A stretch of 61,898 bases of DNA, from the NCBI RefSeq assembly GCF_002441695.1, contig NZ_JXJW01000017.1:1-61898 (forward strand). The letters run 5' to 3'. The notes beneath the pieces were generated by a model, which worked only from the letters and a program-made list of their open reading frames with translations, was not told the DNA's origin and searched no databases. Positions 5,050 through 47,704 of the stretch are shown here, piece by piece (positions within the stretch are counted from its first letter, which is position 1; each line of letters opens with the position of its first letter). The stretch is from Pseudolactococcus piscium (GTDB lineage: Bacteria; Bacillota; Bacilli; Lactobacillales; Streptococcaceae). A program made the position numbers and the translations under genes.

Positions 5050-5218
5050 AGTTATGTACCATTTCCTTTATTCTATAGGCTTCATAGCCATTTTTACTTT
5101 TTCTACTGACCACAACTAACCATTTTTTTAAATCATCAAAAGTGTTAGCCACTTCTTTTTGCTCTGCAGGGGATAAGAAGACAGCCTCTATCATCCTTTG
5201 TGCTATGGTTTTGGACAT
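4979..5218 (-). CDS. Small hypothetical protein upstream of ebfC
   Basis: A 79-codon ORF, starting MSKTIAQRMIEAVFLSPAEQ, that overlaps the first 71 bases of ebfC in another frame. The first 60 residues look protein-like (mixed charged and hydrophobic, helical). The last 20 residues lie in the overlap and may be chance. The first ATG has little space after a weak AGAAG tract; an internal ATG (residue 9) follows AAAGG. I recognise no family. It may be a real gene translationally linked to ebfC, or a spurious ORF in the ebfC leader. Confidence 0.4.
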   Translation of the reverse strand: MSKTIAQRMIEAVFLSPAEQKEVANTFDDLKKWLVVVSRKSKNGYEAYRIKEMVHNYDEHAKNDETSPGFTKEYEGCTS

Positions 5219-5295
5219 CTTCTATTTTAACATCTTTATACCTTTCTGTCAGCCGATACTTGTTTAGCAACTTAGTTTAAATGATTCGATTTATC

Positions 5296-5320
5296 AAAAA
5301 GCCAGTACTTCAGTACTGGC
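5296..5320 (-). terminator. Terminator of the LPQTG adhesin gene
   Basis: GCCAGTAC-TGAA-GTACTGGC on the minus strand is an 8-bp perfect stem followed by TTTTT. It is 40 bases after the stop codon of the adhesin. Confidence 0.85.
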
Positions 5321-5359
5321 CAAAAGTATTTGACAAATCGCTACTACGAGCTAAATAGA

Positions 5360-8300: not shown

Positions 8301-9100
8301 TTTCGATCTAAGTTATAGTAAACCACGCCATCTAAACCAATAATACTTTTGTTTTCAACATACTTAAGTGTATCAACTGTTTCATATAAATCAAATGAAT
8401 AAGTTGTTTGTGCTAAATCACCTATCATAATTTTGACTTGTGGTTCTTTTTCCGTATATAAAAAACTCTTTAACTCAATCGAAAATGATACATCTGTAAC
8501 TGCTTGTGAAAAGGTAACTGTTAACTGCTTCGTGCTACCAAGTACTTGCCAACTCGCATCGATTCCTGCTATCATACCAGAACTATCTGAAAAGCCAAGA
8601 TTATCTGGTAATGTCATTACAAACGTTGAACCCGCTGGATAAGCCTTATTTGCAACTTCAAAGTCCAGCTTCAACTTTACTGGTGTATTATTTAATAGAC
8701 GTGTTTCAGTAGTCATACTATACGCCACGTCATCCATAGAGGTAAGTGTCGCTTTTTTTAACAACTGATCTGTAATATTAGTCTCTTGCGTTATGCCACT
8801 GTCCGTTTTTACAGGTTCGGTAGCCGTTTCTTTGTCTGTCTCATCTGTTATTGATGCTTTTGACTGATTCACGGGCGATTTTTCGGCTGGTATCTCATCT
8901 GGTAAATCACTACTTTGCTTAACCCCCGATTCCGCATGCACGTCATTCTTTACAGCAGTCGTCATTTCCCCCTGATGACTATCCCTTGTTTCAGCAACAG
9001 CCAATAGTGGTCCTATTACTTGTGATAGACTCAACACCCCGATCAATATCAATCCATATAATCTTTGACTTACTTTTTTCACACTGTTTCTCTCTTTCAA
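5360..9100 (-). CDS. LPQTG-anchored surface adhesin with CnaB and Ig-like domains
   Basis: A 1246-residue secreted, sortase-anchored protein. The N-terminus has a signal peptide (residues 1-36, hydrophobic LILIGVLSLSQVIGPLLA, cleavage near AVA-ET). A Glu/Lys/Thr-rich linker follows to about residue 110, then a long beta-rich region (about 120-950) resembling adhesin-type Ig folds. Near residues 990-1065 is a SpaA/CnaB-like module (KIPGVTLVLVN, TDKNGNYTLNDIQTGKYTL, QAPAGYIIPD). Two tandem Ig-like repeats come next. The C-terminus has LPQTGD, a hydrophobic helix and KKRE, a sortase A substrate. It probably binds a host, plant or matrix ligand that the sequence does not reveal. It is monocistronic, with its own promoter and terminator. 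Confidence 0.9.
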   Translation of the reverse strand: MKERNSVKKVSQRLYGLILIGVLSLSQVIGPLLAVAETRDSHQGEMTTAVKNDVHAESGVKQSSDLPDEIPAEKSPVNQSKASITDETDKETATEPVKTDSGITQETNITDQLLKKATLTSMDDVAYSMTTETRLLNNTPVKLKLDFEVANKAYPAGSTFVMTLPDNLGFSDSSGMIAGIDASWQVLGSTKQLTVTFSQAVTDVSFSIELKSFLYTEKEPQVKIMIGDLAQTTYSFDLYETVDTLKYVENKSIIGLDGVVYYNLDRNLSGETTLSLTLASSPDAVYKKQDMRALAVSCFDVDIKGNVNPDSQTELTEGTDYTILSNTVQDTSVQIARLNRQKAYAVSYKFTISLSAISDYAYYYSKGYPTTGLGSISLKNVAGKRSGISLSAKTSRDEKEIYSRTNDAILGGSLFGSKGKYALYIHSMPTEMKAGEKVVITSQNGQPITLDKLLANDALYQSVQVSDYFDVQTKDNETIITAKIDSNLRLGSTFLTVPFNKKDIIINVSSPLIPGKAFKIVGDDYVEPISIINPSNAETAWGNYYQNGAYSSDTVLNIEASNALPMNHLEIFVKHPDYLSLREVRDVNYYYKLNVDYTISKVAGGTLVKFTSPIVRSVQFAIGFNYVPDGLPTTKVIPVDKIPITIKADGMDSIESYVSTGRKLYSEKTLQGSKNQFLVNARQDTIENLSVRTIIPKNTDVVFDIYDVSNDQVDAIYPQYWDRGGYTSNLMKKTDVGYPEISFDTATNQYLFNFGTTNKRYMIAYSYANGWQANQTTSISGYAKEPQNNNEESVSTIQVTNTVTDIVTIAQSAVVGTKNLTTVKGSTQNINQTTKKVVNPIFEMKSLGNTGGEIDINSIEISRVPRNSYKVQKTSEGVNIIFSDYTLTENIDISYSVISQNAGQISAMMTVSSSSIESLSEKERTATSSVTNLQFSAGDSEGIIYKAQALFEVYNREQPTTKIPGVTLVLVNQLTDLMQTIETDKNGNYTLNDIQTGKYTLFVTQAPAGYIIPDAYLSGTEIQLTRNDNQFSIGLIQENDLSSVGVKNSSLYVGESWQAEDNFVSATDRTGVPLALSDLSVTGTVDSSRPGRYEVDYQNGNVHAVAIVTVVSDKTTIMTKDTTIYAGDTWQAEDNFVSATDKTGSPLILSDLTVTGTVDSNQVGSYDVTYQNGNVSAVATIKVISKVLETDKQADQGDKGKSSMSTATESKVKKLPQTGDKDSRLIVMIGLLAMTYITWFISKKRE
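5560..5962 (-). repeat. Two tandem Ig-like repeats inside the adhesin gene
   Basis: Two copies of about 65 codons (about 5560-5745 and 5766-5962) encode nearly matching segments. Both contain WQAEDNFVSATD, a P-L-LSDL-VTGTVDS stretch and YQNGNV-AVA. The DNA is also visibly similar, so copy number could change by recombination. Confidence 0.8.
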
Positions 9101-33695: not shown

Positions 33696-33724
33696 TTGAA
33701 AATTCAGTCTATTTTTAGTACAAT
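33696..33724 (+). promoter_or_regulatory. Promoter of the amino-acid ABC operon
   Basis: -35 TTGAAA (33696-33701), 17-base spacer, -10 TACAAT (33719-33724). The chosen start ATG is 35 bases further. Confidence 0.7.
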
Positions 33725-33758
33725 AGGGAAGATAATATATACACTTAGAAAGAGACTT

Positions 33759-35354
33759 ATGAAAAAAATATTTTCGCTTATCTTTGCGACACTGCTCGTC
33801 CTAAGCCTAGCGCCAACTACTCCTGTAAAGGCAGCTAGTGACGATAACGAGTTCCGTGTCGGTATGGAAGCAGGTTACCCGCCATTTAACTGGACGCAAA
33901 AAACAAATGCTGATGGTGCGGTTAAAATCGACGGCACCAATCAGTATGCCAATGGCTATGATGTCCAAATCTCCAAAAAAATTGCAGCTAAACTGGATAA
34001 AAAATTAGTCATCATCAAGACAAAATGGGATGGCTTGCTACCAGCCCTAACCTCTGGCAAAATCGATGCGATCATCGCTGGTATGAGCCCAACTGCTGAA
34101 CGTAAACAAGCCATTGATTTCTCACAAAACTATTACACCAGTCAACTGGTCGTCATGGTCAAAAAAGATGGTAAATATGCCAATGCCAAGTCGATTAATG
34201 ACTTTAAAGGGGCTAAAATTACGGGTCAACAAGGTGTCTTCCACTATGACCTAATTCCACAAATGACTGGTGCGACAAAAGAACCAGCCATGGGAGATTT
34301 CTCAGCTATGCGTGTCGCACTCGAGTCTGGCACGATAGATGGCTATGTCGGGGAACGTCCTGAAGGGATCACAGCAGTATCTAAGAATCCTAAGTTCAAG
34401 ATGATTACGTTTGCTGATGGCAAGGGCTTCAAGACAAATCCAGATGATACACAAACTGCTGTTGGCCTCAAAAAAGGCGATAAAAACCTTGAGGACATCA
34501 ATACAGTTTTAGCTGGTATGAGCCAAGCTGAACAAACAAAAACGATGGATCAGATGGTCGCACTCCAAACGCAAACAACTCAAAAGGTCGGCTTTTGGGG
34601 GCAAGTAAAAGAAATCCTCAAAAATAATGGTGGTGACTTTGTACAAGCTGCTGGGATGACTCTCTTCATCTCGATTATCGGGACATTCATCGGGACATTT
34701 ATCGGCCTCATGATCGGTGTCTTCCGAACATCAAAGAAATCTGCTAATCTTGCTATGTCACTGCTACAAACTGTGGTAGGCTGGTTGATTAACATCTATG
34801 TTGAGATATTCCGTGGCACACCGATGATCGTTCAGGCCATGGTCATCTACTATGGGTCTGCACAGTTTCTAGATATTTCTTTAGACAAAACACTTGCTGC
34901 CCTGCTTATCGTCTCGATCAATACAGGTGCCTACATGAGTGAGATTGTTCGTGGTGGTATCTTCGCTGTTGATAAAGGACAGTTTGAAGCGGCCAGTGCA
35001 CTTGGTATGAGCCATGGTCAAACCATGCGCAAGATCGTCTTACCTCAGGTTATCCGAAATATCCTCCCTGCAACTGGTAACGAATTCGTGATCAACATCA
35101 AGGATACATCAGTCTTAAATGTTATCTCGATTACGGAGCTTTTCTTCCAAGGGAATACTGTTGCCCAACAAAACTATCAATATTTCCAAACCTTTACAAT
35201 CATTGCAGCGATTTACTTCGTCTTAACATTTACTGTGACACGTATCCTGAGATTAGTAGAGAAAAAATTAGATTCTGAAAATTACACTACAGGTGCTAAC
35301 CAAATGCAATTGCCTTTAGAGAAAAAAGTTGTAGAAATAGGGGGTGAAAAATGA
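33759..35354 (+). CDS. Amino-acid ABC transporter, fused binding protein and permease
   Basis: A 531-residue protein with the substrate-binding domain and the membrane permease in one chain, as in the GlnP type of lactic acid bacteria. A signal-type N-terminus ([19 protein letters not shown]) precedes the binding domain (about residues 28-265, [33 protein letters not shown]). The permease follows, with the EAA loop [20 protein letters not shown]. The ATG at 33759 after AGAGAC is preferred to a distant in-frame ATG at 33696. It is polar amino-acid type (His/Arg/Gln/Glu family). The ATPase gene overlaps by 4 bases. Confidence 0.92.
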
Positions 35355-36091
35355 GCGAAGTAATTCTAGAGATTAAAAATCTAAAAAAATCTTTTGGCCA
35401 AAATGAAGTCCTTAAAGATATCCATATGACCGTTACATCTGGTGAAGTCATTTCGATCATCGGCAGCTCTGGTAGCGGTAAATCAACACTGCTACGTTCT
35501 ATCAACTTACTAGAGACGCCAACATCTGGCGAAATTCTCTATAAAGGCGAAAACGTCCTCACAAAAGGCTATGACCTGAACAAGTACCGCACCCATCTAG
35601 GGATGGTATTCCAGTCATTCAATCTGTTTAATAACTTAAATGTATTAGAAAATGTTATCGTCGCCCAAACGACTGTCTTAAAACGTAGTCGGGATTTAGC
35701 GACTACGACAGCCTTAGATAACCTAAAGGCTGTTGGCATGGATAGTTTTATCAATGCAAAACCTAGTCAATTATCTGGTGGTCAAAAACAACGTGTTGCC
35801 ATCGCGCGTGCTTTATCGATGAACCCTGATCTTTTATTGTTTGATGAACCGACAAGTGCGCTCGACCCCGAGATGGTCGGCGAAGTGCTTAAAACGATGA
35901 AAGAACTTGCTGATAGTGGGCTCACGATGGTTATCGTAACACATGAGATGGACTTTGCTCGTGAAGTATCCGATCGTGTTATCTTTATGGACCAAGGCGT
36001 TGTTGCCGAATCTGGTACACCCGATCAAATTTTTGTTCATCCAAAAGAAGCTAGAACTAAAGCATTCTTGACGCGTTTCTTAAAAGATTAA
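35351..36091 (+). CDS. Amino-acid ABC transporter ATP-binding protein
   Basis: A 246-residue ABC ATPase that powers the preceding transporter. Walker [11 protein letters not shown]-loop region, signature LSGGQKQR, Walker [13 protein letters not shown] and the switch His (VTHEMDF) are all intact. The ATG overlaps the permease gene by 4 bases (ATGA). Polar amino-acid uptake subfamily (GlnQ type). A strong terminator follows. Confidence 0.95.
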
Positions 36092-36110
36092 CATACGCAT
36101 GCTAAATTAA

Positions 36111-36157
36111 TTTTAAAAAAGATAAGATACTTAACCACCTGTATCTTATCTTTTTTT
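36111..36157. terminator. Terminator after the ABC operon (arm A flank)
   Basis: AAGATAAGATAC-10-base loop-GTATCTTATCTT, a 12-bp stem with a T-run on the right and an A-run on the left. An almost identical hairpin lies at the outer end of the other WxL arm (46884-46927). Confidence 0.9.
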
Positions 36158-36239
36158 CCTTTAAATCAACCAAAAGATATTTCGCTATAAAATAAGCGAA
36201 GCCCAAAAATGAAAAAATATAAATATTTCCATTTTTTCA

Positions 36240-36268
36240 TTGACATTTATATAGCCCCTTGTTATAAT
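36240..36268 (+). promoter_or_regulatory. Promoter of WxL cluster A
   Basis: -35 TTGACA (36240-36245), 17-base spacer, -10 TATAAT (36263-36268). The downstream leader to the start codon is nearly the same as that of cluster B. Confidence 0.9.
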
Positions 36269-36313
36269 GATATTGTAACACAACTTAATATATTAAAGGA
36301 GACAGAAAATTTC

Positions 36314-37117
36314 ATGGAACTTAAAACCTTTTTAAAAAGCACGCTTGTTTTGACAAGTATTGTAACGACTGGGGCGATATTCGCAAATACAGCTATTGCC
36401 AATGCTGATACCACATATGATGGTGCCAAGAAAGCCAAAACAACATCTGATCTTACTTTTATTAAATCAGATACACCAACACCTCCGACACCTCCAGGAC
36501 CAAAACCAAAACCAGAACCAGGTCAAGATCCAAAACCTGATCCAAACCCACAACCAAATCCACAAGGTGGCGAATTAATGCTATCTTATGCCTCTAACCT
36601 AAACTTTGGTACTCAGCTAAAATCAGATACGAACTTTTTTGCTAAAGCAGACAAAGGAAGTAATGGCACTGAATTCTTACCATTTATCGGAATAGAAGAT
36701 AATAGAGGGTCTGAACGAAAAGGTTGGAAACTAACTGCTAAGCAAGATACGCCTTTCAACTCTACAAAAGATAACAAAAAACAGTTGGATGGTGCTACTA
36801 TCACATTCTCTAATCTATTTTACAACGATGAAGCAGGTGCCCCTAAAGCAGCTGCTGGTGATGTTGTCCTAACCTCTGATGCAAAAGATCTTGCGACTGC
36901 TGATACGACAACTGGTATTGGCAGATGGAGCCTTGGGTTAGGTAAATTAGAAGAGGGAATCGTAAGCTACACAGCAGATAAAGATGGCAAGATGACACCT
37001 GTAAAGGGACTAGTTACTAAGGGTGTAAAACTCTCTATACCAAATACTTCTGTTAAAGAGTCTGATACGTATACCACGACGATCACCTATGAATTAATCG
37101 CAGATCCAACTGCTTAA
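36314..37117 (+). CDS. Small WxL-domain surface protein (arm A)
   Basis: A 267-residue secreted protein with a signal peptide (LKSTLVLTSIVTTGAIFANT, cleavage near ANA-DT), a Pro/Lys-rich linker (about residues 55-85) and a C-terminal WxL domain, which attaches non-covalently to peptidoglycan. The WxL motifs are GWKLTA (about 147) and GRWSLGL (about 208). The ATG at 36314 follows AAAGGAG; an in-frame ORF extends upstream but is not translated from a start site. About three-quarters identical by eye to its partner in arm B (45934-46722). Confidence 0.9.
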   Translation: MELKTFLKSTLVLTSIVTTGAIFANTAIANADTTYDGAKKAKTTSDLTFIKSDTPTPPTPPGPKPKPEPGQDPKPDPNPQPNPQGGELMLSYASNLNFGTQLKSDTNFFAKADKGSNGTEFLPFIGIEDNRGSERKGWKLTAKQDTPFNSTKDNKKQLDGATITFSNLFYNDEAGAPKAAAGDVVLTSDAKDLATADTTTGIGRWSLGLGKLEEGIVSYTADKDGKMTPVKGLVTKGVKLSIPNTSVKESDTYTTTITYELIADPTA

Positions 37118-37156
37118 TCAAACTAGGTTAAACATTAAAATCAAAAGTAGGGAGTT

Positions 37157-37201
37157 AGACTTGGTATACAGTTGTTGTATATAGAGGCTAAGTCTCTTTT
37201 T
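37157..37201 (+). terminator. Intra-cluster hairpin after the WxL gene (arm A)
   Basis: AGACTT...AAGTCT with an internal GTATACA/TTGTATAT stem and a T-run. The equivalent position in arm B carries a similar hairpin (45848-45899). It may reduce read-through into the downstream genes. Confidence 0.65.
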
Positions 37202-37202
37202 A

Positions 37203-37457
37203 TATTGCTTTGTTGACTACGAAATTTGCAGATACCAGTAAAAGCTTTTTAACAACACGACTTGATCATGAAGCAAAATAAGTATAAGCTAGCTATTCTG
37301 ATTTAAACATAACAGTATATACACTCTGGATGTCATACTGACCGAGATAAAAAAACAAGGTGATACCTAGTGCTCGATTAAATTACGGTATTAATTTAGT
37401 TGAGCGTGCTTTTAAATCTGGTCTATCACAAAACATTTAAAAATGATCATTAAGTAA
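37203..37457 (+). pseudogene. Decayed WxL-interacting protein gene (DUF916/DUF3324)
   Basis: Fragments of the arm B WxL-interacting protein gene (44824-45831) remain. About 37266-37330 corresponds to the start of the mature protein (ADTSKSF, then LD-E, SYSDL), interrupted by stops. About 37380-37430 corresponds to the residues INLV...FKSG near 240-260. The end (37440-37457) matches the last codons and the TAA. Some three-quarters of the gene is missing, with frameshifts and stops, so it cannot make the protein. Confidence 0.85.
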
Positions 37458-37475
37458 AGAGGTCAAAAGGACGAT

Positions 37476-37742
37476 ATGAAAACGATAAAATTAACTTTGC
37501 CCCCCATATTGATAGGGATGATACTTTTAGGACCTATCTCTAAAGTCTATGGGGACACTAAAGACCAAGTCAAAACAGATGCCAGCATTGCATTTATTGA
37601 CGGGACAGCTACACCTAATTCACCTGCTAGTAATCATCTATTGCCCCTTGGAGAAGAGACGATACCGAGTCTTATCTGTGCCGGACTGATCCTACTGGTT
37701 TTAGTAGCACTGATTCTATACATCAGAAAAAAGAGACATTAA
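37476..37742 (+). CDS. Small LPxxGE-type cell-wall anchor protein (arm A)
   Basis: An 88-residue secreted protein: signal peptide (about 1-26), short middle (KTDASIAFIDG), then LLPLGEE, a hydrophobic helix and IRKKRH. This looks like a cell-wall sorting signal, but the LPxTG box is shortened to LPLGE (the Thr residue is missing). Its partner in arm B has the same LPLGE. In typical WxL operons a small protein with an LPxTG-type tail occupies this place. The start follows AAAGG. The stop is three bases before the next gene's ATG. Confidence 0.8.
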   Translation: MKTIKLTLPPILIGMILLGPISKVYGDTKDQVKTDASIAFIDGTATPNSPASNHLLPLGEETIPSLICAGLILLVLVALILYIRKKRH

Positions 37743-37745
37743 AGT

Positions 37746-40700
37746 ATGAAAAAAAATAAATTATTCACTTTGTTTTCTCTGACACTTTTGTCGTTGGGAA
37801 CACCACTCACAAGTATTGCACAGGCAGTTGTCATCAGCCAAGATACTACTGCTATCACCACTGCAGTAAACGACAAAACTGAAAACACACCCAATCAAGA
37901 AACTGAGCCAGTGCCTACTGACGAAGATAAGACTGGTCAAGATGAAGCTGATTCAGTGATTGCTGATCAGGAGAACTCAGAGAAACAAGAAACTGAGCCA
38001 GAAGCTACTGAAGAACCCAAAAATGAAACGAGCACGCCATCCGACAAAAAACCGAGAGCAGGAAATTCTGGAAACTTAAAAAATGACGGACTTACCTGGG
38101 GAGATGCACCCTGGGCCTTTGACCCAAATACAGGTATCTTAACGATCAACTCAGGAACCCTAGACAATCGTGAAAACGCACCTTGGAACCGTTCTGATAA
38201 CTTCAAAATTAATGTTGATCAAATCAAAAAGATTATCTTTACTGGTAAAACTAAAGCACCTAAAAGTTGTTTAGACTTATTTGCTAACCTAACTTCTCTA
38301 AAGGAAATCGTCGGATTAACTAATTTCGATACCTCCGAGGTGAATAATATGGCTGGCATGTTTAGGAACTGTACGTCACTAACAAACTTGGATATGTCAA
38401 AATTTAGCACCTCAACGGCGAATAATATGAACGGTATGTTTAGAAACTGTACAGCACTCACAAGTTTAGATCTATCAAATTTTGATACTTCTAACGTAAC
38501 AACGCTCCAAATCATGTTCTCCCAATGTAAGTCGCTTAAAAATCTAAATCTATCAAGTTTCAATACAGCTAATGTGACACGAATGGATAGTATGTTTAGG
38601 GACTGTAACGCACTAGAAGCTCTAGATTTATCAAGTTTTAGTACAGCTAATGTGACACGAATGGATAATATGTTTGCCCAGTGTAGAAAACTAAAAAGTC
38701 TAAATGTTTCAAATTTTGATACAGCTAAGGTGACAAACATGACCTACATGTTCTATCAATGTGGGTCACTTATAAACTTAGATCTATTAAGTTTCAATAC
38801 CCCTAATGTCACAAATATGGATAACATATTTTATAAATGTTCGTCATTAAAAAGTTTGGATCTATCAAAATTTGATACCACTAAACTAACCAATATGGAA
38901 GATATGTTTTCAGGCTGTCAGTCACTTCTAAACCTAGATCTGTCAAGTTTTAGAACATCAAAAGTGACAAATATGAACAAGATGTTTGCTAATTGTAAAT
39001 CACTTGAGACCTTAGATATCTCAGGTTTTAATACGAGAGTTTATGATTCATATAAGCAGACAACCATGATAGATATGTTTGCCGGTGCATCACCTTATAG
39101 CGTAACATTTGGTAATGACTTCCAATTTCCATCAACAATGACTTCGCCAAATGTCACTAATTTTTCCTTATCACCTCCTCCTAGAAACAAACTACTGGAA
39201 GAAGGACTCTACTCTACTGGTCTTGTGGTCGAAAAAAATGGTAAATCTGCCCCTTTCTCCACCGTAAAGGACTTCATTGCTAGCAGTCGGTGGAACCCAA
39301 TAAAATCCGGGACCTATATGTTCGAGACTAAACCTATTAAATGGGGAGATGCACGTTGCTCCTATGATTCGAATTCTCGTACCCTAACGGTTAACTCTGG
39401 TGATCTTTATGGTAAGCAACCTTGGTCTACTTTAGGTGTTACAAACGAAGTTAAAAAAATTGTATTCACAGGTAAAAACAAAATAACGTGGTTAAACATG
39501 CCAGATGCTGGCGTATTCCCTGGTCTAAGTCAGCTGACAGAAATCATCGGTTTAGAGAATCTAGATGTCTCAGCTTTAACTAACTTTAGTAATATGTTTT
39601 CTGGTTGTAGTTCCCTTAAAAGTCTAAATCTATCAAGCTTTGATACGACGCGCTTACAGACCTCATATCCTCCGTTAACTAATATGTTTAAGGGGTGTAG
39701 CTCGCTGTCTAGCATCACTTTAGGGGATAATTTTTTATTCTCTCCTTTTATCAACTCTCCCAATTCAGATCCTTTTCTACCTAACCCTATAGCCCTAAAC
39801 AGCTGGGAGAAATCAACCGGTAAGTGGATTCGAGAAGATGGCAACTCTAAAGCCTATAGTCCTAACGATTTCATGGCTAACTATGGGAAAGGCGACTTAA
39901 CAGCAGGAACTTATATCGCTGAAGTTATCCCGACTAAGTGGGGAGATGCGCTATGGACATTTGATGCTAAGACTGGTAGCTTAACAGTAAACTCTGGAAC
40001 ACTGGAAGCAGGACCAACTACTTCTCCCTGGAAACGTACTGATGGTCAAGAAATAGATGCGAGCCGCATCAGAAAGATCATATTCACTGGGAACACCCAA
40101 GCACCTGAAAATTCAGACTCTCTATTTTCGGGTCTTTCCAACCTGACAGAGATTGTGAACCTGACTAACTTGGATACCTCAAAAGTGACAGACATGTCTC
40201 ACATGTTCATCGGATGTAACTCGCTCAAAACCTTAGATTTATCTAACTTTAATACGTCAAATGTAACCAAGACTGAGTGGATGTTCCAAGACTGTGCATC
40301 ACTGACAGAACTAAACCTCAAATCATTTGATACCTCGAAGTTGACCAAGATGTGGATGATGTTTAGTGGGTGTGCTAGCCTGACAAGTTTAGATCTGTCA
40401 AATTTTGATACAAAACATGTTGTCACCATGGGTAAACTATTTTATGACTGTTCAAGCTTAACAAGTGTTAACCTATCAAACTTTGACACGTCACAAGTCA
40501 CACATATGGGACAGATGTTCCAAGATTGTACTTCCCTTACAAGTCTCGATTTATCGAGCTTTGATACAGGTAACGTCACAACCATGCAAAAACTATTTAA
40601 AAACACGCCTCTTTCTAGTTTAACACTAGGCGTTAAGTTTACATCGATGGGCGATGATGCTGACTTGCCTATACCTACCGCAATAAATGAAGGGGAGCAA

Positions 40701-41729
40701 CTAACCGGAAACTGGATTAGAAAAGATGGTAAGTCTAAAGCCTATAGTCCAGCAAACTTCATGGCTAACTATGGTAAAGGGGATTTAACAGCAGGAACTT
40801 ATGTTGGTGAGCTGATTTCTAGTGGTGCTATCTTAGAAACTAACGTCTCCTTTAGTACTGATTCAGGCAAAACAGTTGCGACTACTGCTGTGATTGGTGA
40901 CCAACTGCAAGCGACACTCACAGTCAAGCATTCTGATAAATCACCGACAGACGCGACTGCTAACACCGTTAAGTTATCAACGATCAGCCTGTTGACAGAT
41001 GCATGGGCATTATCGCCTACTGTCACAGTCACAACCTTTGATCAAACTGGTAAGCAAACAGCAAGTAAAGCGCAAACCATTAAAGATAATGAACTCAGTT
41101 TACCATCATTACCTTTCGGTTCGTATGTCGAGATTACCTTAACAGGGACTGCCTGGGAAAAAGCGTACGCCATCTCTGGTGGTAATTATCGCTATACGCT
41201 GAGTCATCAAAGTCAATCAGGAATGCAAAAAGTTGAAACATCGGATAACTTTATCATTAATAGTGGTGCTTTCGGTTTCAAATCAGTCCCTAATATTTCC
41301 TTTAAAGACAACATCTTACCGACAAAATCTAACCAGATTATTGATCGAAAAGACCCTGACTATGCGATTTCGGTAACAGACTATCGAGGGACGCGTTTAC
41401 CTGATGGGGTAACAGCAAAACCTGATCGCCTTAACTGGGAGATCACTGCCACAGCTAGTCCATTTAAGGATGCTGCTGGTAAAACGATTAAGCTATCCAC
41501 TATGGCTATCAGTTTTACAAAGGCAATCGGGCAGACGACAGAACTCGGTGCTGATGCGATACTCATTTCATCTCACGATGTGACAGGTGAGACTGCTAAG
41601 CAGCATAATCTCACTAAGTTATCTTGGGCTAAAGAGCTCGGCTTTAAAGTAGTCGTCCATAACAGGACTGACTTAGATACTACAAAATATACTGCAGATG
41701 TAGACTTTGATTTAAGAACAGCACCTTAA
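37746..41729 (+). CDS. BspA-type leucine-rich-repeat WxL surface protein (arm A)
   Basis: A 1327-residue secreted protein. A signal peptide (to about 27) and a Glu/Thr-rich linker (30-110) are followed by three modules that each open with a W-G-D/N-A motif and end with L-T-V/I-NSG (starts about 116, 531 and 728) and carry BspA-like leucine-rich repeats (repeated M-F, C-SL, LDLS-F-T). The C-terminal 300 residues are the WxL-type domain (LNWEITA about 1228, LSWAKELGF about 1290). It is presumably displayed on the cell wall. The last module plus C-terminus matches the entire arm B homologue. Confidence 0.9.
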   Translation: MKKNKLFTLFSLTLLSLGTPLTSIAQAVVISQDTTAITTAVNDKTENTPNQETEPVPTDEDKTGQDEADSVIADQENSEKQETEPEATEEPKNETSTPSDKKPRAGNSGNLKNDGLTWGDAPWAFDPNTGILTINSGTLDNRENAPWNRSDNFKINVDQIKKIIFTGKTKAPKSCLDLFANLTSLKEIVGLTNFDTSEVNNMAGMFRNCTSLTNLDMSKFSTSTANNMNGMFRNCTALTSLDLSNFDTSNVTTLQIMFSQCKSLKNLNLSSFNTANVTRMDSMFRDCNALEALDLSSFSTANVTRMDNMFAQCRKLKSLNVSNFDTAKVTNMTYMFYQCGSLINLDLLSFNTPNVTNMDNIFYKCSSLKSLDLSKFDTTKLTNMEDMFSGCQSLLNLDLSSFRTSKVTNMNKMFANCKSLETLDISGFNTRVYDSYKQTTMIDMFAGASPYSVTFGNDFQFPSTMTSPNVTNFSLSPPPRNKLLEEGLYSTGLVVEKNGKSAPFSTVKDFIASSRWNPIKSGTYMFETKPIKWGDARCSYDSNSRTLTVNSGDLYGKQPWSTLGVTNEVKKIVFTGKNKITWLNMPDAGVFPGLSQLTEIIGLENLDVSALTNFSNMFSGCSSLKSLNLSSFDTTRLQTSYPPLTNMFKGCSSLSSITLGDNFLFSPFINSPNSDPFLPNPIALNSWEKSTGKWIREDGNSKAYSPNDFMANYGKGDLTAGTYIAEVIPTKWGDALWTFDAKTGSLTVNSGTLEAGPTTSPWKRTDGQEIDASRIRKIIFTGNTQAPENSDSLFSGLSNLTEIVNLTNLDTSKVTDMSHMFIGCNSLKTLDLSNFNTSNVTKTEWMFQDCASLTELNLKSFDTSKLTKMWMMFSGCASLTSLDLSNFDTKHVVTMGKLFYDCSSLTSVNLSNFDTSQVTHMGQMFQDCTSLTSLDLSSFDTGNVTTMQKLFKNTPLSSLTLGVKFTSMGDDADLPIPTAINEGEQLTGNWIRKDGKSKAYSPANFMANYGKGDLTAGTYVGELISSGAILETNVSFSTDSGKTVATTAVIGDQLQATLTVKHSDKSPTDATANTVKLSTISLLTDAWALSPTVTVTTFDQTGKQTASKAQTIKDNELSLPSLPFGSYVEITLTGTAWEKAYAISGGNYRYTLSHQSQSGMQKVETSDNFIINSGAFGFKSVPNISFKDNILPTKSNQIIDRKDPDYAISVTDYRGTRLPDGVTAKPDRLNWEITATASPFKDAAGKTIKLSTMAISFTKAIGQTTELGADAILISSHDVTGETAKQHNLTKLSWAKELGFKVVVHNRTDLDTTKYTADVDFDLRTAP

Positions 41730-41787
41730 GCCATCACACATCAATTAACTAGCTAAGCAGTAATAAGTTATAAGGGCTACAAATTTT

Positions 41788-41829
41788 AAAAAACCGGACT
41801 GAGGGGACCCCCTAGTCCGGTTTTTTTTG
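41788..41829. terminator. Terminator at the end of arm A
   Basis: AAACCGGACT-13-base loop-AGTCCGGTTT with a run of T; works for the rightward LRR gene, and its A-run allows the other direction. Confidence 0.9.
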
Positions 41830-42090
41830 CTCTTTGTCAAATCGTGTGGGAAATATCCAAAGACCATAAGCAAGGGATTCGGTACTTTTTTTAGTTTGTT
41901 ATAACAGTGTTCATCAAAACAACTATTTAAAAAGGACTGAGGAGACTAGGAATGGCAAGACAAGTCAGGGAAATTATTTTAGTTTACTCACATTATAATT
42001 GAATTCAATACTGCAACACAAAACGAATTAAGAAGAAATTAAACTGGATGTCGCCAACCCAATATCGGATGGCATTATCAAACTAACAAA

Positions 42091-42119
42091 AAAATCAAGC
42101 AGTAAATGCTTGATTTCAA
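42091..42119 (-). terminator. Terminator of arm B
   Basis: On the minus strand AAATCAAGCA-loop-TGCTTGATTT is followed by a T-run. It is 170 bases beyond the stop codon of the arm B LRR gene and overlaps the first copy of the 42-bp repeat. Confidence 0.7.
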
Positions 42120-42232
42120 AAGTTTATATTTTGGGGGTCACATCAAAATGCTTGATTTCAAAAGTTTATATTTTGGGGGTCACATCACAATACTTGATTT
42201 CAAAAATTTATATTTTAGGGTTCACATCAAGC
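42107..42232. repeat. 3 x 42-bp tandem repeat between the arms
   Basis: Three head-to-tail units begin at 42107, 42149 and 42191. Units 1 and 2 are almost identical; unit 3 has several substitutions. Each unit has TTGATTTCAAAA, TTTATATTTT and GGGGGTCACATC-like stretches. Because 42 is a multiple of 3, an ORF runs through the repeats, but no start or protein-like signal supports translation. Confidence 0.9.
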
Positions 42233-42290
42233 ATTACCACTAAATTTTTAATGATAATCAATCTAAAGCATTAATTATAAATAATTGTGG

Positions 42291-44534
42291 TTAAGGTGCA
42301 GTCCGTAGATCAAATGATACATCGGCAGTATAGTTTGTAGTATCTAAGTCAGCTCTATTGTGGACGATTGCTTTAAACCCGTTGTCTTTAGCCCAAGATA
42401 ACTTAGTAAGATGATTGTTTCTAGCAGTCTCACCTGTCACATCGTGAGACGCAATTAGCACTGCATCGGAACCGAGTTCTTTTGTTTGGCCTGATTTATT
42501 CGTAAAGCTGATTGCCAAAGTAGATAACTTAATCGTTTTACCAGCAGCATCCTTAAATGGACTAGCTGTTGCTATTATATCCCAATTGAGCCGATCTGGC
42601 TTTGCCGTCGTGCCATCAGATGGTAGCTGAGCGCTACGATAGTCTGCTACTGTGATCGCATAATCAGCGTCTTTACGATCAATAATCTGGTTGAATTCGG
42701 TCGGTAAGAAGCTTTCCTTAAAGGAAATATTAGGTACTGATTTAAAACTTAGTAAACCACTATTACTGACAAAATTATCTGATTTATCAACTTTTTGAAC
42801 ACCTGACTTATTTTTATGATAGAGCGTATAGTGACAGTTATAACTAGGGGATGCATCTGTTTTTTCCCAGACGGTCCCAGTTAAGCTAATCTTTAAATAT
42901 GATCCATAAGGCAAGGTGGGTAGGCTAACTTCATTATTTGAAATAGTCTGTACTTCAGTAGCCGTTTGGTTACCATTTTGATCAAACGTTGCGATTGTTA
43001 CACTAGTGGATAATACCCATGCATCTGTCAAAAGTTTGATATTTGTTAATTTAACGGCGACTGCGGTCGAACCAGTCGGCGATTCAGCAGTATGCTTGAC
43101 TGTGATCTCCCCTTGTAGTTGATCACCAATCACAGCATTAGTCGCAATTGTTTTGCCTGAGTCAATACTAAACGAGATGTCGGTTTCTAAGATAGCAGTA
43201 TCATTCTTCAGTTCAGCCACGTAGGTACCTGCTTTTAATTCCTCGCCAATCTTTTTCATAAAGTCGACCGAGTCGTAGGCTTTAGAATTCCCGTCTTTTC
43301 TAATCCATTTTCCAGTTAATTGATCTCCAGCGTTTAGTGCACTGGGAGCAGTTAGACCACAATCACTACCCAAATTCTTAAATTTGTCGCCTAGTGTTAA
43401 GCTAGAAAACTGCGTATTTGTAAACATCTTCATCATCGTGGTGACATTCTTGGTATTAAAGCTCGACAAGTCAAGATTTTTAAGAGAAGTACATCCTTCA
43501 AACACATGTCCCATATTTTTAGCACTTGAGGTATCAAAGCCTGATAGATTGAGGCTTGTTAAACTTGAGCAGCCATAAAATAGTTTGCCCATCGTGCCAA
43601 CATTCTTGGTGTTAAACATAGACAAATCTAAACTTGTCAGTTTTGCACAGCCACTAAACATCATCCATATTTTTGTAACCTTTGAGGTGTCAAAGGTCTC
43701 AAGATTTAGTTCTGTAAGTGAAGCACAGTCTTGGAACATCCATTCAGTACTTGTTACATTTGACGTATTAAAGTTAGATAGATCTAATGCATTAAGAGAC
43801 TGACAACCAAGGAACATCCGGTCCATATTTGTCGTTTTTGAAGTATCTAGGTTAGGCAAGTTAACAATTTCTGTCAAGTTTGTTAGGTTAGCAAATAGGG
43901 AGCCTGAATATTCCGGTGCTGTCGTAGGACCTGTAAAGATAATCTTTTTAATCTGGTTCCCATCGATTCCATCAGTTTCTCGACGCCATGGTGAGGTCTC
44001 GTAGCTATCAAGCTCTCCTGAGTTGATTGTCAAGATACCTGAGTCACTATCAAATGTCCATGATGCATTTCCCCAAGTAAGTGTATCATCAGCACCCACC
44101 CCTCTAGCTCTCCCTATTTCTGAGTGCTCTGGTTTAGTGGGTGAGGCTGTCGCCTCACTTTTTTGTTCTTCGGTCGTTGAGGTTGAAGGCTCAGTTTCTT
44201 GTTTATCCATCGTCTGCTCATCGGTAGTCGAGAACGGAGACGTCCCTTGTTCATTCATGTTCTGATCATCAGTAGCCGAGGAATTAGTTTCTTGACTATC
44301 CGAATTATGCTCATCAGTTGTTGATGGATCGGTTTCTTGATTATCCGACTTTTGCTGATCACTAGTAGTTGGTGCGATCCCTTGTTCTTTAGCGTTTTTG
44401 GTATCGTTACTTGATCCGTCGGAGGTAGTGATGGTATCTTGCTTAGCGCCACCTGCCTGTGCGATACTCGTTACTGGTATCATTATTGACAAAAGTGTCA
44501 GAGAAAACAAAGTGACTAATTTATTTTTTTTCAT
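42291..44534 (-). CDS. BspA-type leucine-rich-repeat WxL surface protein (arm B)
   Basis: A 747-residue secreted protein. A signal peptide and a long Glu/Thr/Ser-rich linker (to about 145) are followed by a single module (W-G-N-A at about 152, then leucine-rich BspA-like repeats) and a C-terminal WxL-type domain (LNWDIIA, LSWAKDNGF). It equals the last module plus C-terminus of the arm A protein, which has two further modules. It overlaps by 14 bases the preceding small anchor-protein gene, so translation is likely coupled. Function: cell-surface display and probably adhesion. Confidence 0.9.
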   Translation of the reverse strand: MKKNKLVTLFSLTLLSIMIPVTSIAQAGGAKQDTITTSDGSSNDTKNAKEQGIAPTTSDQQKSDNQETDPSTTDEHNSDSQETNSSATDDQNMNEQGTSPFSTTDEQTMDKQETEPSTSTTEEQKSEATASPTKPEHSEIGRARGVGADDTLTWGNASWTFDSDSGILTINSGELDSYETSPWRRETDGIDGNQIKKIIFTGPTTAPEYSGSLFANLTNLTEIVNLPNLDTSKTTNMDRMFLGCQSLNALDLSNFNTSNVTSTEWMFQDCASLTELNLETFDTSKVTKIWMMFSGCAKLTSLDLSMFNTKNVGTMGKLFYGCSSLTSLNLSGFDTSSAKNMGHVFEGCTSLKNLDLSSFNTKNVTTMMKMFTNTQFSSLTLGDKFKNLGSDCGLTAPSALNAGDQLTGKWIRKDGNSKAYDSVDFMKKIGEELKAGTYVAELKNDTAILETDISFSIDSGKTIATNAVIGDQLQGEITVKHTAESPTGSTAVAVKLTNIKLLTDAWVLSTSVTIATFDQNGNQTATEVQTISNNEVSLPTLPYGSYLKISLTGTVWEKTDASPSYNCHYTLYHKNKSGVQKVDKSDNFVSNSGLLSFKSVPNISFKESFLPTEFNQIIDRKDADYAITVADYRSAQLPSDGTTAKPDRLNWDIIATASPFKDAAGKTIKLSTLAISFTNKSGQTKELGSDAVLIASHDVTGETARNNHLTKLSWAKDNGFKAIVHNRADLDTTNYTADVSFDLRTAP

Positions 44535-44805
44535 GTTTTAATATCCCTTTTTTCCTGATATAGACGATCAATCCGCCTAAAGCCAGTAGTGCCAATCCGG
44601 CACAGAGAACAGGTAGTATCATCTGTTCTCCGAGTGGCAATAAACGATTACTAGAAGGTGCAACAGGTGTAGGTGACCCGTCTATAAATGTAATACCGAC
44701 GTCTGTTTTGACTTGTGGCATCGTATCACCATAAACTTTACAGATAGTCCCTAAACATATCATCCCAATCAAGCTGGTGATCAAGCTTATTTTTATCATT
44801 TTCAT
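44521..44805 (-). CDS. Small LPxxGE-type cell-wall anchor protein (arm B)
   Basis: A 94-residue secreted protein equivalent to the 88-residue arm A gene: signal peptide, short middle (KTDVGITFIDG), LLPLGEQ, hydrophobic helix and IRKKG. The C-terminus runs eight residues further (ILKHEKK), overlapping the start of the LRR gene. The sortase box is LPLGE, without the Thr expected in LPxTG. AAAAAGAACGAT precedes the start. Confidence 0.8.
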   Translation of the reverse strand: MKMIKISLITSLIGMICLGTICKVYGDTMPQVKTDVGITFIDGSPTPVAPSSNRLLPLGEQMILPVLCAGLALLALGGLIVYIRKKGILKHEKK

Positions 44806-44823
44806 ATCGTTCTTTTTACCTCT

Positions 44824-45831
44824 TTACTTAACAACCATCGGTTTTTTATTTTTTTTGATATACCAGATGATAAAGGCGAAGATAATTAAGACTAAAGCAG
44901 CGATAATCAGGAATAAATAAGTATTATTTGTAGATTTATCGGTCACGTAGACTGAATTTTTATTGAACTCTTTCGCTTCTTTTGCTTTTATTGTAAACTT
45001 TTTAGTAAATGAAAATGCCTTACCATCAGCTTTACCAGTTACAGTCATGATATACTTACCAGATTTAAAACTATTGTTTACTAAATTAATGCCATAATTA
45101 AATTGAGAATTAGGTGCCATTCTCATATTAGAGTTTTCAGCTTCATATAAGACTTTTTTTGACCCTGCTTTGGTTACGGATGCTTTTGCTTCCAGTTTCT
45201 TAATTATCACAGGCGCCCCATTTTGAAGTGTTGCACTGATGACATTTTGTGAATTACGTTGTTCTATTTTAGCATCTAGAAGTGACATATCAGGTACTAT
45301 CTCAGCTTCTGTTTCGCGCAATACGACCCCCACAGTATAGGCAATGTTACTTTCTACCCCACTTGTTTTTGGTTTTGCTTTTGTTTCTGCTGATGTGACA
45401 CGTATGCCTCCTAGAATCTGTCCATCGTATTGTTTTTCAGGCATGATAACCGTTACAGGGACATCGATTGCACTTTTTGCTGGAATCGTCACGTCTTCAC
45501 TCTCAACTGTCGCAATATCTGAAAAACCGACTTTTAAAGTTGTGTTCTTATTACTATTACCAGAGTAGTCGGTTATCCCATTATCATTTGTAGCACCATT
45601 ATTAAGTTTGAGCTTGAGTTTGACTGCTTGGTCTGCCCCATTAAAGATGCGAATTGGTAGCACTTTATGTTCATTTGGTGCTACTTTTAGATCATAATAG
45701 CTACTTTGTGTTTGCTTTGTTTCAGGATCAAGTGGTGTTACTGAAAAGCTTTTACTGGTATCTGCTGATACGCTTACTGCAGTTAATAGGACAATGAAAC
45801 TAGCCAATACTATATAAAATTTGTTCTTCAA
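44824..45831 (-). CDS. WxL-interacting protein (DUF916-DUF3324)
   Basis: A 335-residue protein with a signal peptide (MKNKFYIVLASFIVLLTAVS), a DUF916-type beta domain (about 25-150), a DUF3324-type domain (about 160-285), and a C-terminal transmembrane helix with a basic tail (LFLIIAALVLIIFAFIIWY then KKNKKP). In WxL systems such proteins bridge WxL proteins and peptidoglycan or host matrix. It is intact only in arm B; the arm A copy is a pseudogene, so the arm A WxL proteins may depend on this protein. Confidence 0.92.
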   Translation of the reverse strand: MKNKFYIVLASFIVLLTAVSVSADTSKSFSVTPLDPETKQTQSSYYDLKVAPNEHKVLPIRIFNGADQAVKLKLKLNNGATNDNGITDYSGNSNKNTTLKVGFSDIATVESEDVTIPAKSAIDVPVTVIMPEKQYDGQILGGIRVTSAETKAKPKTSGVESNIAYTVGVVLRETEAEIVPDMSLLDAKIEQRNSQNVISATLQNGAPVIIKKLEAKASVTKAGSKKVLYEAENSNMRMAPNSQFNYGINLVNNSFKSGKYIMTVTGKADGKAFSFTKKFTIKAKEAKEFNKNSVYVTDKSTNNTYLFLIIAALVLIIFAFIIWYIKKNKKPMVVK

Positions 45832-45847
45832 TCTGTATTCTCCTTAG

Positions 45848-45899
45848 AAAAAGGGCGCTAGCTTGTACATTCACATGATGTATAACAAGTCTAGCTCCC
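45848..45899 (-). terminator. Intra-cluster hairpin after the WxL gene (arm B)
   Basis: On the minus strand GGGAGCTAG...CTAGCGCCC with a T-run after it, between the small WxL gene and the WxL-interacting protein gene. It is likely a partial terminator that lowers expression of the later genes relative to the first. Confidence 0.75.
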
Positions 45900-45933
45900 T
45901 CCTTTTCATTTTAATGATTAAGCTAGCACTTGA

Positions 45934-46722
45934 CTAAGCTGCTGCTGGATCCGCGATTAATTCGTAAGTGATCGTCGTGGTATAAGTATCTGATTCTTTA
46001 ACAGAAGTATTTGGAATAAATAATTTTACACCTTTGGTAATTTGACCTTTGATAGGTGTCGCCTTACCCTCTGTATCTACTTTGTAATCTACGATTCCCT
46101 CTTCTAATTCGCTACCAAAACCAAGACTCCATGATCCAATACCTGTTGTCAACTCTGCAGTCGCAAGGTCTTGTGCTCCGGATGATAAGGTAATATCACC
46201 AGAAGCAGCTTTAGGGGCACCGGCTTCAGCATCATAAAATAGATTAGAGAATGTAATCGTAGCACCAGCCAATTCTTTTTTGTTATCTCGTGTTGACTGA
46301 AAAGGTGTATCTTGCTTAACTGTTAATTTCCAGCCTTTTCGTTCAGACCCTCTATTATCTGATACTGAGATAAAAGGTAAAAATTCAATGCCTTTACTAT
46401 CTATATCCGCTTTAGCAAAAAAAGCTGCATCTGACTTCAACTGAGTACCAAATTTTAAATTAGGTGCATAAGAAATCATTAATTCCGCACCCTCTGGATT
46501 TAGAGTTGGAGTTGGTATTTTATCTGGATCAGGTTTTGGTCCTGGTGGTGTTGGTGGTGTCGGGGTATCTGATTTTATAAATGTAAGATCAGATTTTGTT
46601 TTGGCATGCAACGCATCGGGATATGTGTCATCCGCATTAATAACTGTTGCATTCATGAGGACACCCCCAGTCACAATACTTGTTAAAATAAGCGTTCTTT
46701 TTAATAACATTCTTAATTCCAT
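45934..46722 (-). CDS. Small WxL-domain surface protein (arm B)
   Basis: A 262-residue secreted protein with a signal peptide (LLKRTLILTSIVTGGVLMNA), a Pro-rich linker, and the WxL domain with GWKLTV and GSWSLGF. The C-terminus (SDTYTTTITYELIADP) is identical to the arm A copy. The ATG at 46722 after AAAGGAG is taken; an in-frame ORF further upstream is excluded. First gene of cluster B. Confidence 0.9.
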   Translation of the reverse strand: MELRMLLKRTLILTSIVTGGVLMNATVINADDTYPDALHAKTKSDLTFIKSDTPTPPTPPGPKPDPDKIPTPTLNPEGAELMISYAPNLKFGTQLKSDAAFFAKADIDSKGIEFLPFISVSDNRGSERKGWKLTVKQDTPFQSTRDNKKELAGATITFSNLFYDAEAGAPKAASGDITLSSGAQDLATAELTTGIGSWSLGFGSELEEGIVDYKVDTEGKATPIKGQITKGVKLFIPNTSVKESDTYTTTITYELIADPAAA

Positions 46723-46767
46723 GAAATTTTCTATCTCCTTTATTCTATTAAGTTGTAGTATAATATC

Positions 46768-46796
46768 ATTATATAAGGCTGCCATCTAATTGTCAA
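46768..46796 (-). promoter_or_regulatory. Promoter of WxL cluster B
   Basis: Minus strand: -35 TTGACA (46791-46796), 17-base spacer, -10 TATAAT (46768-46773). The leader to the start codon has the same order of sequences as cluster A (TAATGATATT, ACAACTTAAT, AAAGGAGA, AGAAAATTTC). Confidence 0.9.
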
Positions 46797-46883
46797 TACT
46801 TAAATGAGATTATTTTTATTTTTTAATATTAGACTTCGTTTATGTGAAAAAGAAAAGACTGTCATCCGTTTTGTTTAAATAAC

Positions 46884-46927
46884 GAAAAAAAGATAAGATA
46901 CAAGTAATGAAGTATCTTATCTTTTTA
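46884..46927. terminator. Outer-flank terminator of arm B
   Basis: AGATAAGATAC-10-base loop-GTATCTTATCT with A and T runs. It terminates queH or isolates the cluster, and mirrors the hairpin at 36111-36157. Confidence 0.85.
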
Positions 46928-46984
46928 TACTAAATCGGCTTATCGCTCATGTCTTTTAACTAAATCTATTCATAGATTCTTATC

Positions 46985-47704
46985 TTATTCTGTCAGGTAA
47001 GCTTTGGCTGCTGCATTCACTGCTTTCAGATCAACTCCTTGCTGCTTGGCGGCAAATACACAGCCGCAGTAACACTGACGATAAATATCATATTCCCCAC
47101 ACATGTCTACTGAACGACGGTAGCCATTATTTTTCTTGAAGTCACTCGGTAGATAATTCACAGCATAAATTTTTTGCATATCCAAGCCAACTTCATTAAT
47201 CACTTGGCTATTTTTATGAGGCGAAACAGTCAGGGCACTGCCAAAGTAGTCAAAACCGAGTGCTTGCGCTTTTTCAGCAACGATGTCCAGACGCATTTGA
47301 AAACAAGCTGTACAGCGTTTGCCACCCTCAAGTTCAGATTCAAGTCCCTTAGCCATGACCATCTGGTTAAAAACAGCTGGTTCATAGGGACTCGACATAA
47401 AGCCGACCTTTGCGCCCGTTCTTTGATTAAAGGTCTCGACAAAGTCTTTTTGGACTTGCTCTCTTCGGCTATACTCACTTGCTGGATGGATATTAGAGTT
47501 GGCAAATAGAATCGTCACATCCGCATAGCTGGATAAGTACTCTAGACTATACGTACTACAAGGGGCACAACAACTATGCAGTAAGATGCTTGGCCGAACC
47601 TGCTGTAACTGCCAGTCTGCCATCACTTCTTGTAATACCTTATCATAGTTGACTTTCTGACCAGCTTTATATGTCCTTAAAATTTCTGTCGAATCTTTCA
47701 TCAT
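46985..47704 (-). CDS. queH: Epoxyqueuosine reductase QueH
   Basis: A 239-residue enzyme of the last step of queuosine tRNA modification (epoxyqueuosine to queuosine), a non-orthologous replacement for QueG. Cys ligands are visible: HSCCAPCST (about residues 44-52), KRCTACFQMRL (about 130-140), and MCGEYDIYRQCYCGC near the C-terminus. The start is taken at 47704 (MMKDSTEI); the second Met is equally possible. It is a standalone gene between the WxL locus and dnaX. Confidence 0.93.
   Translation of the reverse strand: MMKDSTEILRTYKAGQKVNYDKVLQEVMADWQLQQVRPSILLHSCCAPCSTYSLEYLSSYADVTILFANSNIHPASEYSRREQVQKDFVETFNQRTGAKVGFMSSPYEPAVFNQMVMAKGLESELEGGKRCTACFQMRLDIVAEKAQALGFDYFGSALTVSPHKNSQVINEVGLDMQKIYAVNYLPSDFKKNNGYRRSVDMCGEYDIYRQCYCGCVFAAKQQGVDLKAVNAAAKAYLTE

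Follow-up and report, generated by a model that had tools for sequence, protein, structure and literature searches.

An old inverted pair of csc-type (WxL) surface-protein clusters between glnQ and queH in Pseudolactococcus piscium, with probable ectopic exchange with a third cluster and probably rare recombination between its arms

Two csc-type clusters encoding WxL surface proteins lie tail to tail between glnQ and queH in the window, that is, the whole stretch of 61,898 nucleotides analysed from Pseudolactococcus piscium (NCBI RefSeq assembly GCF_002441695.1, contig NZ_JXJW01000017.1). They probably form an old inverted pair whose arms belong to separate lineages, with ectopic exchange mainly involving locus b, a third and dispersed cluster, and recombination between the arms occurring rarely. 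The anatomy of the locus, the orthology of its arms, the relic of a gene for a WxL-interacting protein (WxLIP), ratios of nonsynonymous to synonymous divergence (dN/dS) well under 1 in the intact genes, an empty target site and a mosaic structure are the parts of this reading drawn from sequence. Expression of both arms, use of the WxLIP in trans and an adhesin role with a module-varied binding face are parts that we infer.

From left to right come glnP-glnQ (33696-36091, + strand), the left or glnQ-side arm (about 36111-41735), a spacer of about 560 bp, the right or queH-side arm (about 42285-46927) and queH (46985-47704, − strand). The gene names glnP, glnQ, queH, fbp, rbsK and dnaX were read off translations, without a database match, and presumably apply. 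Both arms carry the same order of elements: a small WxL protein, a WxLIP (a relic on the left, intact on the right), a small LPLGE protein and a large leucine-rich repeat (LRR) protein of the DUF285/PARCEL kind, of 1327 amino acids (aa) on the left and 747 aa on the right. Aligned with each other, as the original prediction had proposed, the arms give blastn blocks of 74.3% identity over 1799 nt and 76.4% over 1073 nt (both E 0.0), and a third of 77.5% over 435 nt. Identity is 74-82% across the inverted-repeat blocks (I1-I9) and rises to 89% in the pair of outer terminators (I12); by gene, identity is 78.2% for the WxL pair, 76.4% for the LPLGE pair and 77.6% for the C-terminal 900 nt of the LRR pair. 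Alignable parts have diverged by about 18-26%, slightly above the 15-25% estimated by eye, and the outer terminators are closer, at 11%. The predicted arrangement of two cluster versions tail to tail is upheld, but the versions are unequal, the left arm having no WxLIP gene and the large proteins differing in length. A promoter common to both arms as an exact string, a hairpin after the first gene and closely matching outer terminators, all foreseen in the original prediction, are present. The consensus fold of this hairpin from eight copies has 22 pairs, 2 of them changed on both sides; folding the right-arm copy by itself (z +0.79) is uninformative, that stretch having been folded without its 3′ side.

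The distribution of the pair was followed in 12 genomes of the genus, the window genome (G000) included. A WxLIP match at E≤0.001 occurs in nine of them, and the cluster pair between glnQ and queH in three (G000, G006 and G001). In two others (G007 and G008), glnQ adjoins queH with one different terminator between them, which represents the empty site. The remaining seven are uninformative as far as they were followed, with glnP and queH on separate contigs (G002, G005, G009), queH unmatched (G003, G004, G010) or a close glnP not found (G011). The layout of G006 is that of the window: in both genomes the queH side has the arm whose WxLIP is intact and whose LRR protein has a single module, and the glnQ side has the longer arrays, of 3 modules in G000 and 12 in G006. 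In the tree of the LRR C-terminal domain (C-domain), the queH type groups with the G001 glnQ-side copy and the glnQ type with locus b, each at 100/99, and both lineages appear to predate the split between G000 and G006, in agreement with the prediction that the event was not recent. Since that time, the glnQ type would have lost its WxLIP and come to carry the longer PARCEL-repeat arrays, and the queH type would have kept its WxLIP together with one LRR module. Because synonymous divergence (dS) between species is 0.61-0.93 in the WxLIP and 0.15-0.34 in four flanking genes, the locus stands out as much more diverged than the genes around it, and imports into it from outside are possible. The dN/dS ratio is 0.12-0.29 in 18 pairs of WxL, WxLIP and LRR C-domain sequences (one WxL pair, with dS 0, has no defined ratio); this favours function on both arms.

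Evidence for ectopic exchange comes from locus b. This third cluster adjoins fbp in G006 and G000, and in G006 it lies about 0.66 Mb from the glnQ arm. In G000 its ends are on contigs C3 and C73, both of which stop inside the cluster; that they flank one locus is supported by the empty b site of G001, where rbsK (964813-965709) is adjacent to fbp (965882-967804) and the gap between them could not hold a cluster. The rbsK gene (about 4964-5518 of the G000 locus-b stretch) adjoins locus b in G000 and fbp in G001; G006 has no rbsK match at E≤1e-60, and a flavodoxin-like gene, read from its translation, stands beside locus b there. Compared with the glnQ arm of the same genome, G006 locus b is 96-100% identical in 300-nt windows from 0.3 to 6.0 kb, with 1012 bp free of any difference and a WxL dS of 0. 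At about 6.1 kb it switches partner: from 6.3 to 8.1 kb it has no match of ≥200 nt to the G006 glnQ arm, and the window left arm is matched at 79-96%. At the level of modules, the six at the front match those of the G006 glnQ arm (96-100%) and the three at the back pair best with the window left arm (88-90%). The module tree joins G6bC3 with G0q2 (100/100) and G6q11 with G0b4 (99/91). The LRR gene of G006 locus b is broken into two frames. As mosaic and module tree agree, parts of the arrays have been swapped between the glnQ arm and locus b after the G000 and G006 lineages parted. The exchange of LRR modules suggested in the original prediction is thereby real as read from these alignments, but its demonstrated partners are the glnQ arm and the dispersed third cluster; a reservoir of surface variation is plausible, with the two arms not its main partners.

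The third genome differs in layout. In G001, where the locus lies on a single contig, it is the glnQ side that bears the arm with the intact WxLIP. An additional WxL-LPLGE-LRR cluster, its LRR gene split over two frames, lies in the middle, and on the queH side are two LRR genes with long arrays (4 and 3 modules) but no C-domain, together with relics of WxL, WxLIP and LPLGE genes. Grouping by position is rejected for G001 with the LRR C-domain (p-AU 0.0009, approximately unbiased test) and with the last module (p-AU 0.005). Among 68 informative C-domain sites, the G001 glnQ-side copy is queH-like at 57, glnQ-like at 10 and neither at 1, and the glnQ-type control copies give queH-like to glnQ-like ratios of 4:63 and 8:53. 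The outermost sequence behaves otherwise: of 11 sites on the glnQ side, 8 are glnQ-like, none queH-like and 3 neither, and on the queH side, 13 are queH-like, none glnQ-like and 4 neither before the first glnQ-like site, followed by 11 and 11. Between terminator and WxL gene on the glnQ side, the 109 sites are mixed (42 glnQ-like, 45 queH-like), and in columns 800-1100, the 3′ part of the WxL gene, 18 are queH-like and 4 glnQ-like. These sites are consistent with an inversion whose crossovers fell in the stretch from terminator to WxL gene end. Flanking genes place G000 and G001 nearest (dS 0.15-0.21 in four genes, and 0.16-0.34 against G006; in glnP alone, G001-G006 at 0.160 is marginally below G000-G001 at 0.166), so the state of G001 is most simply a derived one. 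One old inversion or between-arm conversion thus appears to have taken place in the G001 lineage, and inter-arm recombination would be rare, with at least one event that carried the queH-type inner part to the glnQ side. The shared WxLIP deletion was considered as a marker of arm identity in G001 and set aside, the ends of the relic being too eroded for a decision.

The original prediction can be read as proposing an active locus, whose arms would undergo frequent recombination that inverts the spacer or shuffles LRR modules in a population. Inverted arms several kb long and the opposite side of the intact-arm type in G001 are in its favour, yet we consider it very unlikely. Among the sites that divide the four G000 and G006 arms two by two, 202 put arms of one side together and 14 put arms of one genome together, the latter not above the baseline of 22 given by the third pattern; no run of identity between arms exceeds 42 bp in G000 or 29 bp in G006. 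Neither site patterns nor exact matches give a sign of between-arm conversion in these two genomes, which speaks against frequent arm-to-arm conversion there and makes frequent switching unlikely. The arms are too diverged for the near-identical inverted repeats of a phase-variable invertible locus, no neighbouring recombinase was recognised by eye among the open reading frames (ORFs) listed for 30-52 kb, and the outer terminators keep their side in three genomes by eye and in G001 also by site counts. Comparison of related genomes, which the prediction had recommended, yields one case of changed side among three genomes and no inter-arm conversion in the window genome or G006. For G001 itself, the layout could instead have arisen if the queH arm converted the glnQ arm in one direction, or if a queH-type cluster was imported, and the queH arm later decayed. 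This alternative, compatible with an old pair of separate lineages, is the less probable one but deserves weight: the queH arm is decayed, with its relics and its two LRR genes that have no C-domain, and the WxL and LPLGE genes on the glnQ side are mixed. Against it, the long arrays that an inversion predicts on the queH side are present, and module c2 groups with the glnQ/b type at 85/97; most other modules group with the G001 middle and tandem copies.

Several observations weigh against an old pair with rare inter-arm recombination and exchange with locus b. Only three genomes carry the pair, one per species, and switching within a strain is out of view. The complexity of G001, with its extra cluster and decayed queH arm, leaves room for conversion plus decay. 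The WxL gene on its glnQ side falls with the copy of its own middle cluster, placement with the glnQ type alone or the queH type alone being rejected (p-AU 0.004 each); its LPLGE gene has 12 glnQ-like and 10 queH-like sites; and its LRR N-terminal sites are few and mixed (5 glnQ-like, 9 queH-like). The queH-type group of the last-module tree is supported at just 75/67, and the site counts carry noise around the WxL gene, where a glnQ-type control (G000_b) has 73 glnQ-like and 30 queH-like sites of 110. In locus b of G006, the last 1.8 kb alternates in best match between the window left arm, G000 locus b and the G006 glnQ arm, and the C-domain tree puts this copy with the G006 glnQ arm (89/92), grouping with the window left arm being unrejected (p-AU 0.10). 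The use of a WxLIP in trans, finally, is a step that we infer.

The state of the left arm bears on this last point. Its WxLIP is reduced to fragments at 37228-37314 and 37365-37422, which match 45679-45765 and 45058-45115 of the right arm and correspond to codons ~23-51 and ~240-258; the 358 nt separating its WxL gene (to 37117) from its LPLGE gene (from 37476) contain only these fragments and flanking intergenic sequence. It could therefore be asked whether this arm is a decaying duplicate without function, an explanation that the loss of the WxLIP favours. It is nevertheless highly improbable, as the other three frames are open, the glnQ-type WxL and C-domain have dN/dS of 0.18 and 0.29 between G000 and G006, and promoter, terminators and hairpin are retained. 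Under the reading of an old, functional pair, both arms would be expressed and the left arm would depend on the WxLIP of the right arm, its proteins using this single copy in trans; the long LRR protein would be a surface adhesin whose binding face varies by gain and loss of modules and by ectopic gene conversion, chiefly with locus b beside fbp. The right-arm WxLIP is the sole intact copy of its subfamily in the window genome, where two further WxLIP matches, found also by PF06030 scan, bring the total to three and are only 39% and 35% identical. Each relative has one WxLIP more than 80% identical to the window copy (85% in G006, 81% in G001), other full matches in both being at ≤33%, with a 47-residue relic match at 50% in G001. 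Relics elsewhere are similar to that of the left arm in cluster b of the window genome, reduced to next to nothing in the glnQ arm and locus b of G006, and undetectable in the G001 middle cluster.

By composition, the right arm is a csc cluster, with both CscA domains in its WxLIP, and the left arm, with only relic fragments of CscA, is csc-derived rather than a full csc cluster. A CscB-type small WxL protein (PF13731) is found in both, as is a CscD-type very small LPxTG protein, in which an LPLGE motif is accompanied by what, judged by eye, are a hydrophobic stretch and a basic tail; TIGR01167 is above its cut-off in the left-arm protein only and NF053819 below it in both (Table 1). The large proteins, with three module blocks on the left and one on the right, are PARCEL arrays by TIGR02167 (460.8 and 169.2 bits, cut-off 30) and by PF03382. 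Their C-domain, possibly a WxL2 domain as in CscC, is found at E≤1e-30 in three of 295 genomes of the family, the same three that carry the pair. A PF13731 match is absent from the results for both large proteins of the window, and the G001 middle copy scores 12.5 bits, below the cut-off of 25; hhalign of the C-domain against the small WxL alignment gives a probability of 9.9% (E 0.0032), and the AlphaFold model of the C-domain (mean pLDDT 42.3) is too poor for use. Intact frames with mosaic arrays range from 699 to 3249 aa in the three genomes, the longest being the 12-module PARCEL protein, a single open frame, on the glnQ side of G006 (C1 331007-340756).

Table 1. Features of the two arms and the spacer (positions in the window)
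Feature	Position	Strand	Details
Outer terminator hairpin, glnQ side	36116..36161	+	89% reverse-complementary to 46881-46926; fold 36105-36165 z -8.56
Promoter TTGACA-N17-TATAAT, left arm	36240..36268	+	exact string
Small WxL protein, left arm, 267 aa	36314..37117	+	PF13731 E 6.9e-35; start taken at ATGGAACTTAA; longer ORF from 36209
Terminator-like hairpin 3′ of first gene, left arm	37145..37205	+	fold z -3.75; 8-copy consensus fold
WxLIP (DUF916/DUF3324) gene relic	37160..37440	+	two fragments, remainder deleted
Small LPxTG-type (LPLGE) protein, CscD-like, 88 aa	37476..37742	+	TIGR01167 17.9 bits (cut-off 15.9); NF053819 37.1 bits (below cut-off 47)
Large DUF285/PARCEL-repeat protein, 1327 aa, ~300-aa C-terminal domain	37746..41729	+	PF03382 E 3e-95; TIGR02167, 17 repeat stretches
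Terminator after left-arm LRR gene	41785..41835	+	fold -24.5 kcal/mol, z -5.25
Three 42-bp direct repeats, spacer	42104..42229	.	two identical
Large DUF285/PARCEL-repeat protein, right arm, 747 aa	42291..44534	-	PF03382 E 1.8e-33; TIGR02167, 6 stretches
Small LPxTG-type (LPLGE) protein, right arm, 94 aa	44521..44805	-	LPLGE motif; NF053819 26.8 bits (below cut-off 47)
Intact WxLIP, CscA type, 335 aa	44824..45831	-	PF06030 2.8e-30, PF11797 5.6e-43
Small WxL protein, right arm, 262 aa	45934..46722	-	PF13731 E 4.1e-34 (scanned from 46731); start taken at ATGGAATTAAG; longer ORF to 46785
Promoter TTGACA-N17-TATAAT, right arm	46768..46796	-	exact string
Outer terminator hairpin, queH side	46881..46926	-	pairs with glnQ-side terminator; fold 46880-46935 z -7.12

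The queH-side terminator of G006, equivalent to window 46881-46926, has stem bases changed on both sides, by eye, with the stem kept. The 42-bp spacer repeat is a small dispersed intergenic repeat with nine matches in its own genome, the spacer included, the best elsewhere being 94% over 93 nt. Another WxL cluster of the window genome occupies the short contig C27 (1-8505); its products are a DUF285-like protein of 1196 aa, a protein of 573 aa that matches WxL weakly, a small WxL protein and a WxLIP at 38-39% identity. Elsewhere in the window, a 1246-aa ORF (5360-9100, − strand) matches this 573-aa protein at 31.5% over residues 967-1188 and is possibly another large surface protein.

The products of csc-type clusters form surface complexes, with WxL proteins bound by the DUF916/DUF3324 protein; detection of ElrA, an LRR-WxL protein, requires another member of its operon (PMC1534035, PMC10599100, PMC4522977). 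The csc clusters (cscA-D) of Lactobacillus plantarum and relatives (PMC1534035) resemble the present ones in the DUF916 protein, the small WxL protein, a large protein (with a C-terminal anchor domain there and possibly here) and the very small LPxTG protein, and also in the occurrence of several clusters per genome. They are described by Siezen et al. (2006, PMC1534035) as always having a single cscA per cluster and as having evolved as units without shuffling, whereas here the glnQ arm and locus b are without an intact cscA and are mosaic. The main text of that paper describes no inverted pair, the string 'invert' occurring 0 times in it. The elr operon of Enterococcus faecalis, as presented in PMC4522977, is alike in its LRR surface protein, whose C-terminal WxL domain may have a counterpart here, its further WxL proteins, a small LPxTG protein and a DUF916 protein; it is, however, one five-gene operon with another gene order and its own DUF916 gene, and has no inverted pair. 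Palindromic amphipathic repeats of the PARCEL/DUF285 kind (PMC2996958) are matched by the window arrays through TIGR02167, the NCBI PARCEL model, in 17 and 6 stretches. Perfect 10-nt palindromes, the only class counted, show no enrichment in the two genes (3 and 3, against synonymous-shuffle means of 4.62 and 2.57), and so lend no support to palindromes as drivers of PARCEL exchange; the dyads treated in that work are longer and imperfect. The invertible MBA/UU172 elements of Ureaplasma (PMC3047005) also have inverted repeats among surface-protein paralogues, and their inversion can yield chimeras; there, inversion is site-specific and described as frequent, whereas here the arms are diverged and change is seen between species only. 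Literature linking WxL to inversion, recombination, inverted duplication or gene conversion shows no inverted WxL pair among the matches listed, although this does not prove that none has been described, and none of the papers searched joins Lactococcus piscium with WxL.

A broader interpretation, which we offer tentatively, is a multi-slot display in which several adhesin clusters share one WxLIP, the WxLIP-free slots trade PARCEL modules ectopically between the inverted pair and a distant locus, and a rare inversion moves the anchor to the other side. Three genomes have clusters without a DUF916 gene, one intact copy each of the anchor subfamily, changed in side in one of them, and mosaic arrays, in contrast to csc units described as non-shuffling (PMC1534035). 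Should display in trans hold, anchor and adhesin would be separable, and the variable part of the WxL complex would evolve as other antigen families do, through exchange between dispersed copies.

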